A stretch of DNA of 64,000 nt from Planctomycetaceae bacterium (GTDB taxonomy: Bacteria > Planctomycetota > Planctomycetia > Planctomycetales > Planctomycetaceae): positions 1 through 64,000 of the forward strand of contig JAKFVC010000091.1 of assembly GCA_021732415.1 (NCBI GenBank), read 5' to 3'. The translations under genes and the position numbers were made by a program. Shown in pieces: positions 16,784 through 22,937 of this stretch. Positions within the stretch are counted from its first letter, which is position 1. Each line of letters starts with the position of its first letter. A model generated the notes under the pieces. The model was given only the letters and a program-made list of their open reading frames with translations, had not been told where the DNA came from and made no database searches.

Positions 16784-19700
16784 TCAGAATTTCAGAGGGA
16801 CCGTCGGCACGATTTCATCGGGAGCCGGTTCTTCCGTTGATTGACTCCACGCCATCGGCGCGGCCTCATCGAGATCGCGCCATTCGATGTCGACTCGACT
16901 CTGCAGGCGGCTGCCCAGTTCTTTATACATGGGTACGCCTCCCGTCACTTCGGCGGCCAGTTGTGAGAGTGGAACTGAGTTCTCGATTGTACACAGGGTG
17001 AGGTCGGTCAGTGGCCCTTCGACGATGGTCGTGTGTGGTGACAGGCCCCGCAGTACGCTGGCTTCTGTACCGGCCGGAATGACCAGGCATTGGGCCGTGA
17101 TCTGGTTGTTGTCAGCCTGGGACGCGGTCAGCCTGGATCGTAAGAGCTCCACCACCTTATTCATCGAACTGGATTGAGACCCAGTGCGACAGGCACCCAG
17201 AAGTTTGCGATTGATGTCCTGAACGCATTCCAGCACATTCAGTCGCGAGGACTGCAGCAACGGCAGCCAGAGCACTGGCTGCAAGTCGACGACGGGATCC
17301 AGCAATTTGCGGAGTTCTCTTCCCTGGGCGACTAGTTGTCGTTCGGTGTGAGTATCGATCTGCTGGGCGATCTCGAAGCGCCTCAATTCCAGTTGCTCGC
17401 GCAGCATATTGCGATAGGCTAGCACGATGGTCGCACTCTCGGACAGATCGCCTTCCGCACCAGGGTCCGCAGGTGTGGGAGCCGGGGTCAGATTCGACAG
17501 GCGTGTGAGATCACGCGAGAGGCGATCGAGTTGTTCGATCAGCGTGGTGACCTCGGCATCCACGATGCGGACGATCTTGGCCGTGACGCGCAATAGGAAC
17601 TCATTGAGCCGGAAATTGGCATAGGTCCGCAGAATGTCGCGCAGTTTGTCATCCGGTGACTGGCCGCGTATCCAGGCGACAAGTCCCCGGCGCTCCGGAC
17701 GATGAAAGCCCTCGCTCCGGGCGAGTTCGCCGACTTCGTGAGCCTGATCCATTTGTGCGACGGCAAGTTTAATCGCGTCGTCATACAGTGTCTGCAATTC
17801 GTGCTGGATCGCCATTGCACTGCGGCGTGCGCCGTCGAGACGCAGGTCGGGAGCGTCGATGATCCCCTGCACCCAGGCAAACAACTTATTAATGCGAGGT
17901 CGCGTGCGGGCCGTGAGCCGGTCTGCGACTTGCATGAAGAGTTGATCGTCGCCGAGATTATCGAGTCCCTCGTGGAAGTCGCTCTGCAGGCAACGGTCCA
18001 GCAAATCGAGGACGATGCCGGCCCGAACTGCTCCCTGTTCGCTTTCCTTCGTGACTCCCAAAGCCTGGTCGACCAGGTTGACGACGAAATCTTCGACACT
18101 CGCGCCGCTTTCCAGGCGAATGACCTCGGCGGCGTCACTCCGAATATGTTCCACATCGAGTTGAGATTGCACGAATTGTTGCCGTACGCCCACCGCGGTG
18201 GCGGCTGTGACCGCATCGCCCGTGTTCGACGTCAACGCGCTAAGCTTTAGGGTTTTCACGTTCACTGATGTGGTATGGGGTGCGGGAGCCTTGCGGCCCT
18301 CACGCCAAAATCCAATCACGTCATCACTGGCGACGCGCGTGGCCTCGGCAATTGTCGTGCTGCCGCCTGCGCCCAGTGCGGTCACCTGTGCGCGATGTGC
18401 GTGCAGGGGGATGGCCTGCAGGCCTTCGGCACCGGCGGATGCTGGTCGACGCAAGAGATCATTAGCGGCAGTGAAGTTGGCGGCATATAAAAACTCGGCC
18501 ATTTGTTCCGCGGCCAGTTCCCATTCGGTTTGTCCCAGGCCTTCACCCAATTGGAACATCAACGTTTCGCCGAACGCCGCGTTGTCGCCATGAAAGGGAA
18601 CTGCACCCAGCAGTGGCTCGCCGGGATAATGACTTCCCGGGGCACTGTAGTGATGCAACTCGCGCATCAGGGCGTAGGCATTGGCGCGAGATTTATCACG
18701 TTCCGAATGGCTGCGAGGTGTCGCATGCAGGAGGACCCCCTGCATGCGTTCATGAGGCAATTCCTGCCGTTTGAGTTCGCTGCGGATGGCATACGTCAGA
18801 TCGGGGATGGCACCGCTTCCAGTGCCGCCACCCACGCTGCCGATCAGGGTGACGCGTGGCGCACGCCCATCGGCCGCTCCCTGGCTGGCCGCCTTGCTGA
18901 TCGCGTTGGCCAGCGCCGTACGGACACGCGGTCCGTTGGAGACCAGCGCGAGCCGCCCCAATGGGCGATAGCCATTCGTCGTAAGATCTCTCGGGATATT
19001 GTAAAACCAGCGGCGTCCCAGCCATTTCAACACGGCCGCCGTTTGCGAGCCATAGGCATCTGCCGGTTTGATGGGGATGGGAACCACATGCACTCGATCC
19101 AGGTCTTCTTCACGAAAACGCGAAGACAGGGATCGCGTGTTACTATCCAGAACAATGATTTCGACAGGGGGCCATTGGCTCGCAGGTCCGAAGCGATCAT
19201 TGAGGCGGTTGACCAACCGAGTGAGGACCTCGACACCCAGTCCGCCGACGCCGATCAGAATGGTCGGATCCGTTCCAGTTCCAGCGTTTGATTCGGCAGG
19301 GGGCGTGCGGGACGGCTGCTTCCCGGCAGTGTTTCCAGCAACCGGCGGGGCTTTGGAGTTGATCGTATCGGTCGTGGTCGCAGTTCGTACCTGCGGAGTG
19401 TTCGATTGAGGAGCCCGCGGAATGGCCGAAGGTCTGGGGATAGGCGTCGGCGTCATGTGGCCAGAGACGGCAGCCGGGCGGTCGCTCCCGGATTCTTCTC
19501 CGCGAATGGCTTCTCTTAAAGCCGTCACCAGGTCCATGCAGCTTCCAAAGCGCAGGGACGGGTCCTTCGACAGAGCCCGGGCAATGACGGGCCGTTGAGC
19601 GCGGGGCAGGGCCGAGAGATCGGGGACTCCGTGCAAGTGGGCCGCGGCAATCTGAGCTGTGCTGCCGCCGGGAAAGGGGAGCACTCCAGTCAGCATGTGC

Positions 19701-20323
19701 GCATAGACGAGTGCCAGACCGTACTGGTCGCTATGGCGGTTCGGTTTGCCTTCAAACAGTTCCGGCGGCGAATAGGTGGGAGTCAGTCCGCCCACCATCG
19801 AGGCCGAACGTTCATATAAGTTCTTAACGAGACCAAAGTCGCCCAGCTTGGCGCGGCCGCTGAGCAGCAGGATGTTCTCGGGCTTCACGTCAAGATGTTG
19901 CAGCGAGTAACTCTCATAAAGATAGTCAAGAGCCTCGGCGGTATCGCTGACGTAACGCAGGAGTTCCACCTGCGGAATGCCCACCGACTGGGCCTGACGC
20001 AGTTGTGCGAAGCGATCTTTCAGGCTGCCGTCGGCCAATTCGGTAACGATGACCAGATTGCCTTCGCACATCTCGATGCGTTCGATCGACAGCAGCAACG
20101 GATGTCGAACATCCTTAATGCGAGCCAGTGCACGCAGTTCCGTCTCCGCCTGAGTGGGGTCGGCGTCGCCATAAATAATCTTGACCGCCTTGGGGATCCC
20201 TCCCGGCGCAATCGTCTTCCAGACCTCACCGTATCCCCCGCGACCGAGGAGTTCGGTGGTCTTGTAGCCCGCGATCGGTTCTTGCCGATCAAATGAATGC
20301 TTGCCCGATGATCCCGCAACCAT
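16784..20323 (-). CDS. Ser/Thr protein kinase fused to a tubulin/FtsZ-like domain
   Basis: 1179 residues. An N-terminal Hanks-type kinase (about 20-272) has the glycine loop LGRGGYGEV, the lysine in AVK (K47), the catalytic loop HLDVKPEN (D145; Leu replaces the HRD Arg), DFG (162-164) and SPPE. A Pro/Thr-rich linker (275-350), itself a likely phosphorylation target, leads to a GTPase-like domain. That domain starts ILIGVGGLGVEVLTRL (355-370) and carries the tubulin signature GGGTGSG (498-504), as in the Tubulin_2/FtsZ-like families. The last 500 residues are mostly helical with no clear membrane helix. It is the third gene of a tight operon, 19 bases after the AAA+ gene. No phosphatase is adjacent. 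Confidence 0.93.
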   Translation of the reverse strand: MVAGSSGKHSFDRQEPIAGYKTTELLGRGGYGEVWKTIAPGGIPKAVKIIYGDADPTQAETELRALARIKDVRHPLLLSIERIEMCEGNLVIVTELADGSLKDRFAQLRQAQSVGIPQVELLRYVSDTAEALDYLYESYSLQHLDVKPENILLLSGRAKLGDFGLVKNLYERSASMVGGLTPTYSPPELFEGKPNRHSDQYGLALVYAHMLTGVLPFPGGSTAQIAAAHLHGVPDLSALPRAQRPVIARALSKDPSLRFGSCMDLVTALREAIRGEESGSDRPAAVSGHMTPTPIPRPSAIPRAPQSNTPQVRTATTTDTINSKAPPVAGNTAGKQPSRTPPAESNAGTGTDPTILIGVGGLGVEVLTRLVNRLNDRFGPASQWPPVEIIVLDSNTRSLSSRFREEDLDRVHVVPIPIKPADAYGSQTAAVLKWLGRRWFYNIPRDLTTNGYRPLGRLALVSNGPRVRTALANAISKAASQGAADGRAPRVTLIGSVGGGTGSGAIPDLTYAIRSELKRQELPHERMQGVLLHATPRSHSERDKSRANAYALMRELHHYSAPGSHYPGEPLLGAVPFHGDNAAFGETLMFQLGEGLGQTEWELAAEQMAEFLYAANFTAANDLLRRPASAGAEGLQAIPLHAHRAQVTALGAGGSTTIAEATRVASDDVIGFWREGRKAPAPHTTSVNVKTLKLSALTSNTGDAVTAATAVGVRQQFVQSQLDVEHIRSDAAEVIRLESGASVEDFVVNLVDQALGVTKESEQGAVRAGIVLDLLDRCLQSDFHEGLDNLGDDQLFMQVADRLTARTRPRINKLFAWVQGIIDAPDLRLDGARRSAMAIQHELQTLYDDAIKLAVAQMDQAHEVGELARSEGFHRPERRGLVAWIRGQSPDDKLRDILRTYANFRLNEFLLRVTAKIVRIVDAEVTTLIEQLDRLSRDLTRLSNLTPAPTPADPGAEGDLSESATIVLAYRNMLREQLELRRFEIAQQIDTHTERQLVAQGRELRKLLDPVVDLQPVLWLPLLQSSRLNVLECVQDINRKLLGACRTGSQSSSMNKVVELLRSRLTASQADNNQITAQCLVIPAGTEASVLRGLSPHTTIVEGPLTDLTLCTIENSVPLSQLAAEVTGGVPMYKELGSRLQSRVDIEWRDLDEAAPMAWSQSTEEPAPDEIVPTVPLKF

Positions 20324-20342
20324 AGTCGACGTCCAGGTCCAG

Positions 20343-21701
20343 TCAATTGTGTTGAGTTTTCAGAACCATAGCGAAGTAGCTGTGGACCACGATGTCGCAA
20401 TACTCAGGCAGTAACTCGACCGGCTTATTGTTATAACGGCAGTAGTTGCTGATCTGAGTGAGCAAATCGCGCGGATGGCAGCGCCGCTTCGCCCGCTTAC
20501 AAGGCCGATAGTGTTCTTCCAGTAAATAGTTCACTACGTCTTTGCGATATTCGCAGCCGAAGCGCTCACAATACATGCGGAACAAATGGTGAAACTCTTC
20601 GTCGGTCGGATCTTTGGCATGAATCTTGTAAGGAATGCGTCGCAGGAAGGCCTCGTCGACCAGATCTTCCGGTTCGAGATTCGTTGAGAAAATCACGATC
20701 TGTTCGAATGGAACCTGGATCTTTTTGCCGGTCGGCAACGTCAGATAGTCGTGGCGTGATTCGAGGGGCACGATCCAGCGATTGAGCAGATCGGCGGGGG
20801 CGATGCGCTGGCGGCCGAAGTCGTCAACCAGCAGGCAACCGCAGTTGCTTTTCATCTGCAGGGGGGCCTCGCAGACGTTGGATTCGCGATGATGTCGCAG
20901 TTCCAGATTATCGAGTGTCAATTCACCACCCACGATGACCGTCGGGCGGATGATCTGAATCCAGCGGCGATCGATGCTGGAGGTCAGGAATTGCTCATCA
21001 CCGGATTGTTCGACTTTGCGGTGAAATTGCGTGTCGTAAAACTTAATGATCTGATCGCCGGCGATAATTGCGTGCGGGACCCAGATGCACTGTCCGAAGC
21101 AGAGCGTGAGCTGTCGGGCGAGCGTTGATTTGCCGTTGCCGGGGGCTCCGTATAAGAACAGGCCGCCGCTGGAGGTGATTGCCGGGCCGAGGCTCTCAAA
21201 TAATTGGGGATCAACCGAGATTCCCGCGCAGGCCTTCGTCAATCGGGCCCGGTCGGGTTTTTCGTGGGCGATCGATTGTGCGTCGACTGACAGAACGTAT
21301 TCGGCGAGCGGAATGGGTGCGGGACCGACATAGGCGCACTCGCGCAATAGCTTTTGCGCCTTGGTGATTCCCAGTTCGGTTAACCCATAGACGAAATCGT
21401 TGAGTCTCGCCGTTGTCTTGTGTTCGACAACTTTTCGCGTCCGGAGCGTATCGAGAATCTTGCTGACGATGCCAAACGGCAGCGCCACTTCCTTGGCCAG
21501 AATGCGACCGGTCACACTGCCGTAAACGGCCAGTTGCTTGCAGATCAGTGACTCGATGAGTGTTTCATTCAGGCCGGATTGCTCGAGAGACGAGGGCTCG
21601 ACCGGACAGAACGAATCCTCGGTGAGGAGTTCGCGCAGCAGGTGCGGATCGATCGAAGCTTGTTCGGAGGCGGCGAGCATGGCACGAAGTTCCGGTTTCA
21701 C
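20343..21701 (-). CDS. AAA+ ATPase with N-terminal winged-helix-like domain
   Basis: 452 residues. The first 125 contain a helical segment and a winged-helix-like region (LIESLICKQL through DTLRTRKVVEHK, then YGLTELG). The ATPase core has Walker A GAPGNGKST (185-193), Walker B CLLVDDFG (289-296), a sensor-1-like IFSTNLE and an arginine pair in FLRRIPYK. The basic, Cys-containing C-terminal segment (RPCKRAKRRCHP) may bind nucleic acid or partners. The start is a GTG 12 bases after the stop of the FHA-EAL gene; an ATG seven codons later is possible. It lies between the FHA-EAL and kinase-tubulin genes and so probably works with them. I do not recognise a named family. Confidence 0.88.
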   Translation of the reverse strand: MKPELRAMLAASEQASIDPHLLRELLTEDSFCPVEPSSLEQSGLNETLIESLICKQLAVYGSVTGRILAKEVALPFGIVSKILDTLRTRKVVEHKTTARLNDFVYGLTELGITKAQKLLRECAYVGPAPIPLAEYVLSVDAQSIAHEKPDRARLTKACAGISVDPQLFESLGPAITSSGGLFLYGAPGNGKSTLARQLTLCFGQCIWVPHAIIAGDQIIKFYDTQFHRKVEQSGDEQFLTSSIDRRWIQIIRPTVIVGGELTLDNLELRHHRESNVCEAPLQMKSNCGCLLVDDFGRQRIAPADLLNRWIVPLESRHDYLTLPTGKKIQVPFEQIVIFSTNLEPEDLVDEAFLRRIPYKIHAKDPTDEEFHHLFRMYCERFGCEYRKDVVNYLLEEHYRPCKRAKRRCHPRDLLTQISNYCRYNNKPVELLPEYCDIVVHSYFAMVLKTQHN

Positions 21702-21713
21702 ACGACTGTCCGC

Positions 21714-22937
21714 TTAGTGGACATCGCTCTGACGACTATTGGATGACGGGGATGGTGCGATCGCGGAATCCAAGGCACCAAAGGTCTCGGTGTCTTTCAA
21801 ATGGGCACGAGCGCGTTCGAACCGTGCTTGTTCCACATAATGGGCCGCTGGCAACGGTTTGCCATGCAAATAGCCTTGAGACAGGATGAAGCCCGCCTCG
21901 CGACACGCCTGGGCTTCGGCAACACTTTCGACACATTCGGCGAGCGGTACAATGCCCACTTCGAGAATCATCTGGACCAGCATGGCTACGACCCGTCTTC
22001 GTGCTGCATCAGCGGTGTGGAGATCGTGAATCATGCAGCGGTCGAATTTGACATAATGCGGATGGACGGCCGCCAGTTCGGCGATGCGGGCCTGGCCGGC
22101 TCCAAAATCGTCAAACGCCAAGCTGATGTCGAACTGCTCCAAGCCTTTACGCAGGGCGATCATATCCCCCAGGTTCGTCATCGCGCCTTCGTGCATTTCG
22201 ATCGTAATCGGCTGTTGGGGCGCGATCCGGCGGAGCTCCTCGCACGAGAGTAACAATGTCCCGGTGTCGAGTTCGGCGGGATGTGTATTCAGGAAGAGAT
22301 GCGGAACATCGGCGAGCTGGTAACTGTCCTCGACGGCGACTCGACGCAGGTGTTCGCTGAGTTTCGCACTCAGACCAAGCTGAGCGGCTGCTGAGAACAT
22401 GAAGTTGGGTGTCTCGAGTCCGATCAAGCGGCTGCGTGCCAGGACTTCATAAGCGATGACTTTTCCGCTGTTCAGGTCGATGATGGGTTGATAGTGCGGG
22501 ATGATCGCCTTGCCAGTCAGCAGTTGATCGAACTGCACGATGGCCAGAGCCTGGTCGCACGTATCCTTCTGTCGCGTATGAGACAGGCTTCCGCCTAGAC
22601 TGCGGGACAGGCGAAAGGGAATATCTGCAAATTGAACGAGATCATTGTCGTGCAGCTCCGTCGCGCCGCTCAGGCGGTCGCCATTCACGAAGGTGCCGTT
22701 GGTGCTGCCCAAATCACGGAGACAGAGGTTGGTCCCTTCCTGGAAGAATTCCGCATGCAGCCCCGACACCGTGTTCCCGGGAAGCATCAGCGACAAGCCC
22801 GGCTTGCGGCCCACCTGAAATGGCAGCGGATTGAGGATGAAGTACCGCGGTTCATCTCCGCCCGTGGGGCGGCCAGATAGGACCCAATCGTCCAGCGAGG
22901 TGGTCGCGGCGTAGTTCGGATTGTCTTTCGTCAGCAT
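21714..22937 (-). CDS. FHA domain fused to EAL-type c-di-GMP phosphodiesterase
   Basis: 407 residues. An FHA domain (about 32-120) shows the phosphothreonine pocket: VGRK, SGLH and GSTNGTFVNG. An EAL domain (about 140-385) follows. Its motif reads EVL rather than EAL, but the other catalytic positions are there: the Asn in LNTHP, Glu in ITIEMHE, the metal pair in AFDDFGAG, Lys in VKFDR, Glu in AECVE and Gln in SQGYLHGKP. It is probably an active or weakly active c-di-GMP hydrolase whose FHA domain docks a phosphorylated partner. First gene of the operon that encodes the kinase, which suggests the kinase phosphorylates its binding partner. GAGG seven to eight bases before the ATG supports the start. 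Confidence 0.93.
   Translation of the reverse strand: MLTKDNPNYAATTSLDDWVLSGRPTGGDEPRYFILNPLPFQVGRKPGLSLMLPGNTVSGLHAEFFQEGTNLCLRDLGSTNGTFVNGDRLSGATELHDNDLVQFADIPFRLSRSLGGSLSHTRQKDTCDQALAIVQFDQLLTGKAIIPHYQPIIDLNSGKVIAYEVLARSRLIGLETPNFMFSAAAQLGLSAKLSEHLRRVAVEDSYQLADVPHLFLNTHPAELDTGTLLLSCEELRRIAPQQPITIEMHEGAMTNLGDMIALRKGLEQFDISLAFDDFGAGQARIAELAAVHPHYVKFDRCMIHDLHTADAARRRVVAMLVQMILEVGIVPLAECVESVAEAQACREAGFILSQGYLHGKPLPAAHYVEQARFERARAHLKDTETFGALDSAIAPSPSSNSRQSDVH

Follow-up and report, generated by a model that had tools for sequence, protein, structure and literature searches.

The window analysed here is the whole 64,000-nucleotide stretch at positions 1 to 64,000 (forward strand) of contig JAKFVC010000091.1 in the assembly GCA_021732415.1 of a Planctomycetaceae bacterium. 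The subject is a cassette of three genes on its minus strand (16784-22937), separated by intergenic gaps of 12 and 19 bases, which encode an FHA-EAL protein (407 amino acids, 21714-22937), an AAA+ ATPase with a predicted N-terminal winged helix (452 amino acids, 20343-21701, GTG start with an alternative ATG at 21680) and a protein of 1179 amino acids (16784-20323) in which a Hanks-type Ser/Thr kinase is fused to a Tubulin_2/FtsZl1 (FtsZ-like) domain and an alpha-helical coiled-coil C-terminal part, as assigned with Pfam PF00069 and PF13809 and a tree of relatives. The last one is referred to as the kinase-tubulin protein. The open reading frames, coordinates, strand, order and gaps given in a preliminary description of this DNA were exact on re-check, and its domain calls (FHA-EAL, winged-helix AAA+, Hanks kinase plus tubulin domain) agreed with Pfam, conserved columns and models.

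Starting from the Tubulin_2 genes of 40 near relatives, the trio was recovered from members of the window's genus (G001-G003), from G008 and G011 and from further families (G028, G037, G032 and G036), and the cassette of G324 was located via the AAA+ search. Querying named genomes with the AAA+ alignment yielded 80 loci. In the AAA+ tree (107 sequences), one clade of 50 with a support of 100 in the Shimodaira-Hasegawa-like approximate likelihood ratio test (SH-aLRT) contained every locus that has a kinase-tubulin gene as a neighbour (41 in total), and none of the 57 sequences outside it had such a neighbour. Among the clade loci with adequate flanks (n=32), the kinase-tubulin gene was present in 29, the FHA-EAL gene in 29 and both in 28; outside the clade, 0/39 loci with adequate flanks had either partner. 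The order FHA-EAL, AAA+, kinase-tubulin on one strand was found in the genus of the window and at L079, L151 and L157, the order AAA+, kinase-tubulin, FHA-EAL at L148, L155 and L167, and the order kinase-tubulin, AAA+, FHA-EAL at L163, while a divergently oriented FHA-EAL gene was found in Pirellulaceae (e.g. L160 and L162). Proximity was kept despite the changing gene order, which argues for a functional link. The preliminary description had proposed to look for the gene order in relatives and to drop its idea if it was absent in all of them; adjacency was conserved.

For the survey of 298 genomes of the class, an AAA+ protein was counted as cassette-type at an identity of at least 50%, a proxy for clade membership that was read off by hand. 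Tubulin_2 was found in 138 genomes and cassette-type AAA+ in 56, and all of the latter (56/56) also had Tubulin_2 (Fisher p about 1e-22, uncorrected for kinship). In the family of the window, 15 genomes had both, two had Tubulin_2 only, none had AAA+ only and 67 had neither; the corresponding numbers in family f5 were 24, one, none and at least ten, respectively. Since the best AAA+ and Tubulin_2 matches of four genomes (G438, G515, G518 and G543) were both present on separate contigs, adjacency is not the only basis for the pairing. In the kinase-tubulin tree, the proteins linked to the AAA+ gene and the unlinked ones were split by a single branch with a support of 100. The linked rows were contributed mostly by the AAA+ search and the unlinked ones by looking for Tubulin_2 in near relatives. 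The distance matrices of the proteins were correlated at r=0.82 between kinase-tubulin and AAA+, 0.48 between kinase-tubulin and FHA-EAL and 0.35 between AAA+ and FHA-EAL, and the AAA+ ATPase and the kinase-tubulin protein were taken as the core pair because their correlation ranks highest. As judged from these comparisons, the two are a co-inherited pair with the FHA-EAL protein as a third member, and the cassette almost certainly constitutes a conserved functional module.

Tubulin_2 genes also occur in another setting. In family f3 (L059, L060, L062-L065, L068-L070, L072 and L073), mostly two to four of them were found per genome without the AAA+ partner nearby, and at L059 (9092-15151) two of them stand head to tail.

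The kinase domain (residues 20-260, 19544-20266) matched PF00069 above the curated cut-off (E=4e-30), and its VAIK Lys48, HLD Asp145 and DFG Asp162 were each kept in 41/41 linked relatives. It is followed by a linker rich in Pro, Thr and Ser (residues 280-350, 19274-19486), which the preliminary description had regarded as a possible target of the kinase. The linker is present in the protein of the window and is confined to its own lineage; a conserved Pro/Thr linker was rejected, as the composition varies across the alignment of the relatives, and linker phosphorylation as the mechanism is therefore not supported.

PF13809 (Tubulin_2) matched residues 355-567 with E=1.9e-28 and 100 bits against a curated cut-off of 27, and was matched in 29/29 AAA-linked kinase-tubulin relatives. 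An AlphaFold model of residues 343-1179, built from 29 sequences, reached a predicted local distance difference test score (pLDDT) of 81. Its matches among PDB structures were TubZ, gamma-tubulin, alpha/beta-tubulin, CetZ and FtsZ with E from 6e-5 and TM-scores on the targets of 0.27-0.50; the top 50 were members of the tubulin superfamily or complexes containing them, and all 19 matches with E<=0.001 were TubZ, tubulin or FtsZ entries or their complexes. By this model, the region of residues 350-675 (18299-19276) is predicted to adopt the tubulin/FtsZ fold. The fold claimed around GGGTGSG (the T4 loop, residues 498-504, 18812-18832) in the preliminary description was thus borne out, and the lack of any GTPase fold there, which it had named as a ground for abandoning its proposal, was not observed because the model matches TubZ, tubulin and FtsZ. 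A PDB sequence search with the tubulin segment returned no tubulin, the best matches being coiled-coil and helical-bundle chains. C-terminal to the tubulin-like part, the model contains helices of up to 54 residues (model residues 452-728) and a coiled coil, and the long alpha-helical/coiled-coil part as a whole was assigned from its secondary structure to residues 701-1070 (17114-18223). Within the kinase-tubulin family, the motif RRWxYNIPRSxxTEGxRPLGRLA (18947-19015, residues 437-459, model residues 95-117) is conserved above the level of the GTP loops; to our knowledge, no role has been assigned to it.

No family above cut-off was given by Pfam or NCBIfam for the AAA+ protein. Its Walker A GAPGNGKST (residues 185-193, 21123-21149, with G185 and G188-K191 invariant), Walker B LLVDD, sensor-1 Asn and Arg-finger pair show no or almost no variation among 37 relatives, and the mean column identity over these 37 divergent rows is 44%. 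In the model (pLDDT 86), the N-terminal helices and strands follow each other as in a winged helix, and an AAA+ fold comes next. From these invariant columns, the model and its Foldseek matches, the product of the second gene is a predicted regular AAA+ ATPase with a winged-helix N-terminus. Close paralogues form a large family in Planctomycetia (L080-L098 and L169-L196) and Obscuribacterales/Melainabacteria (L197-L208) without kinase-tubulin partners. Many of these proteins outside the clade bear an N-terminal extension, and several from Obscuribacterales lie behind a conserved upstream gene and near MoxR-type ATPase genes; no partner common across Planctomycetia was found among their neighbours, and we know of no function for them.

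The FHA-EAL protein carries an FHA domain (residues 42-103, 22629-22814, E=1.4e-16), in which the Arg, Ser, His and Asn of the phosphothreonine site were each kept in 39/39 proteins, and an EAL domain (residues 136-361, 21855-22532, E=1.2e-38), of which the catalytic residues E, N, E, D, D, K, E and Q are all present in the window and intact in 35/39. The site is damaged in the remaining four (L027, L028, L135 and L154), and at these loci a gene of the receiver-GGDEF-CBS or CBS type that has lost GG[DE]EF stands beside it. At four other loci (L074, L079, L156 and L158), an intact GGDEF cyclase gene (RFGGDEF or RYGGDEF) precedes the FHA-EAL gene. By their catalytic motifs, the GGDEF and EAL enzymes at these eight loci are kept or lost together. 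The FHA domain and the AAA+ ATPase were retained in all eight of these loci and the kinase in the seven with a kinase-tubulin gene in view, none having been found beside the cassette at L154. Control by cyclic di-GMP (c-di-GMP) is accordingly read, at the level of residue conservation, as a usual but replaceable output and not as a part of the core. A strictly operon-bound FHA-EAL protein was rejected as orphan genes exist. At L225 (6088-10185), a non-cassette FHA-EAL gene is the immediate downstream neighbour of a different Hanks kinase gene, which suggests that the pairing of kinase and FHA-EAL extends beyond this system.

The preliminary description had favoured a GTP-dependent polymer, and the corresponding explanation, a GTP-dependent FtsZ/TubZ-like filament that is severed by the AAA+ ATPase, controlled by the kinase and c-di-GMP and possibly a stand-in for FtsZ, agrees with the tubulin fold, the best structural matches to TubZ and FtsZ, the intact GGGTGSG of the window, the long coiled coil and the genome itself: the search for FtsZ with PF00091 gave only a match below the cut-off to the kinase-tubulin gene, with 13/14 control genomes positive, so the absence of FtsZ raised in the preliminary description holds for this genome. 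However, the exact T4 form GGGTG[ST]G was found in only 5/40 linked proteins and the relaxed form.GGTG[STG]G in 19/40, the loop deviating at the T-G step in roughly half of them (GGVGSG, GGLGSG, GGTASG, GGTCSG, GGITSG, GGCGSG); the T1 consensus GxGGx[GA] was kept in 22/41 linked relatives, no conserved acidic column for the T7 catalytic acid after H7 was found at model residues 269-345 in the alignment of the relatives, and T6-H7 could not be located in the FtsZl1 family by Makarova and Koonin (PMC2875224). Because of the drift of T4 and the lack of a conserved T7 acid, the GTP-dependent polymer is not supported. Moreover, any Tubulin_2 was found in 17/84 genomes of the family of the window, a patchy presence for a general division protein, and the cassette is therefore no general FtsZ replacement. 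The filament was considered unlikely. The tubulin part belongs to FtsZl1/Tubulin_2, and the status of a polymerising GTPase is not implied by its sequence. Phospho-signalling appears from the conserved residues to be constant and tubulin-type GTP chemistry not, a weighting opposite to that of the preliminary description, and GTP turnover is probably dispensable in many lineages.

A role of the winged-helix AAA+ protein in regulating transcription of the operon and of target genes, with the kinase-tubulin protein as its modulator and c-di-GMP as the downstream signal, would fit the topology of the N-terminal domain and the presence of the regulator AAA+ protein GtrR among the Foldseek matches. 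The best of these matches were Lon, RuvB and an uncharacterised Pyrococcus AAA+ protein, and only 1/37 AAA+ members matched the sigma-54 activator family, weakly, so that such a role was judged quite improbable.

The tubulin-like family was described as FtsZl1 by Makarova and Koonin in 2010, with an N-terminal kinase in four planctomycete members (PMC2875224), and the present protein shares with it the PF13809 domain, the coiled-coil and helical C-terminal part and, with some members, the N-terminal kinase. In the accessible parts of two later papers of 2023 and 2024 (PMC9871819, PMC11032199), the fusion of kinase and tubulin-like domain in planctomycetes is reported again, and the tubulin-like domain is given as the one most often joined to purely cytoplasmic planctomycete kinases; operon partners are unmentioned in these parts, whereas the same fusion is split here into AAA-linked and unlinked groups. 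As the fusion was published in 2010, 2023 and 2024, it is not new, and the term undescribed used in the preliminary description applies to the three-gene cassette only, of which no account was found in the literature searched, most subscription journals and the supplementary gene lists of PMC2875224 lying outside this search. The predicted operons of FtsZl1 contain vWA, P-loop GTPase, separate kinase and OmpA-like genes (PMC2875224), in contrast to the AAA+ and FHA-EAL genes found here. The GAP1-N2 conflict systems share an operon of NTPase and tubulin-domain genes and the idea of regulated assembly, but their tubulin type is stated to occur only in firmicutes and actinobacteria (Kaur et al. 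2020, PMC7159879), and their GAP1 GTPase, FNIII and vWA components are all absent from the neighbouring genes scanned here. In the Pfam scan of the neighbouring genes (6.8 to 35 kb), no vWA or P-loop GTPase was found, and as these neighbours include no vWA, GTPase or FNIII gene, the cassette was placed neither with the vWA/GTPase operons of FtsZl1 nor with GAP1-N2. FtsZ, TubZ and tubulin share with residues 350-675 the predicted fold; the differences are the low similarity (PF00091 below cut-off), the missing T7 acid, the additional coiled coil and the kinase fusion.

A conflict or anti-phage system, with the kinase as the sensor of infection and the remaining genes as effectors, comparable to the GTPase-tubulin-vWA systems (PMC7159879), was regarded as improbable. 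It would be in line with the patchy presence, with other Tubulin_2 genes in predicted conflict systems and with the PADLOC models PD-T4-6 and mad6, which matched the kinase domain, and IetA, which matched the AAA+ protein weakly. The kinase matches span the generic kinase domain only, and the PADLOC matches were not accepted as signs of defence; the neighbouring genes scanned contained no nuclease, pore, vWA, GTPase or FNIII gene, and the highly conserved AAA+ protein is co-inherited with its partner, in contrast to the rapid exchange of defence genes. A chance neighbourhood without functional link, for which the patchy distribution and nothing further speaks, is refuted because synteny is conserved, the genes being adjacent in families f1, f4, f5 and others in differing orders and on differing strands, and the 56/56 genome co-occurrence and the co-divergence of r=0.82 leave it a negligible probability.

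A real but uncharacterised signalling system is favoured because the three genes are co-inherited in many planctomycetes, and the components of the signalling module claimed in the preliminary description, namely a catalytically complete kinase, an FHA domain of phosphothreonine-binding type that is joined to an intact EAL site, and an AAA+ ATPase as partner, are all predicted to be present. The kinase would assemble on its own tubulin-fold and coiled-coil scaffold, with the tubulin fold serving mainly as an assembly platform, and the assembled kinase would phosphorylate Thr sites of its own or of close partners. Docking of the FHA domain on the phosphothreonine would then bring the EAL phosphodiesterase to the complex, by which local c-di-GMP would fall, and the AAA+ ATPase would remodel or disassemble the kinase-tubulin assembly and thus reset the system. 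That the cassette is a conserved cytoplasmic signalling system of Planctomycetia acting by this mechanism in full is a reasonable possibility that falls a little short of probable. Several points weigh against it. Shared species ancestry accounts for part of the distance correlation, and the winged helix of the AAA+ protein may mean DNA binding and not protein remodelling. Besides, the tie of the FHA-EAL protein is looser because it is missing beside a few pairs of AAA+ and kinase-tubulin genes (e.g. L159, Rhodopirellula europaea 6C) and occurs as orphans elsewhere. The wider picture of an FtsZ-less budding bacterium in which a self-assembling kinase-tubulin scaffold marks a subcellular site, phosphorylation recruits a c-di-GMP phosphodiesterase to it and a dedicated AAA+ protein dismantles it is offered tentatively and is rather doubtful.

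FtsZl1 has been known since 2010 with no tested function reported in the literature searched, and one branch of it is now tied to two fixed partners; with the AAA+ ATPase as a dedicated partner, an orphan family becomes a testable three-protein system. Selection keeps the kinase, the FHA domain and the AAA+ ATPase and lets the tubulin GTP loop drift, and this separation of kept and drifting activities therefore predicts which activity is to be assayed first. If the proposed mechanism is true, tubulin-superfamily assembly, Hanks-type signalling and c-di-GMP would be directly coupled in one operon, and the cassette would offer a route to how the FtsZ-lacking, budding Planctomycetia might connect phosphorylation with c-di-GMP.

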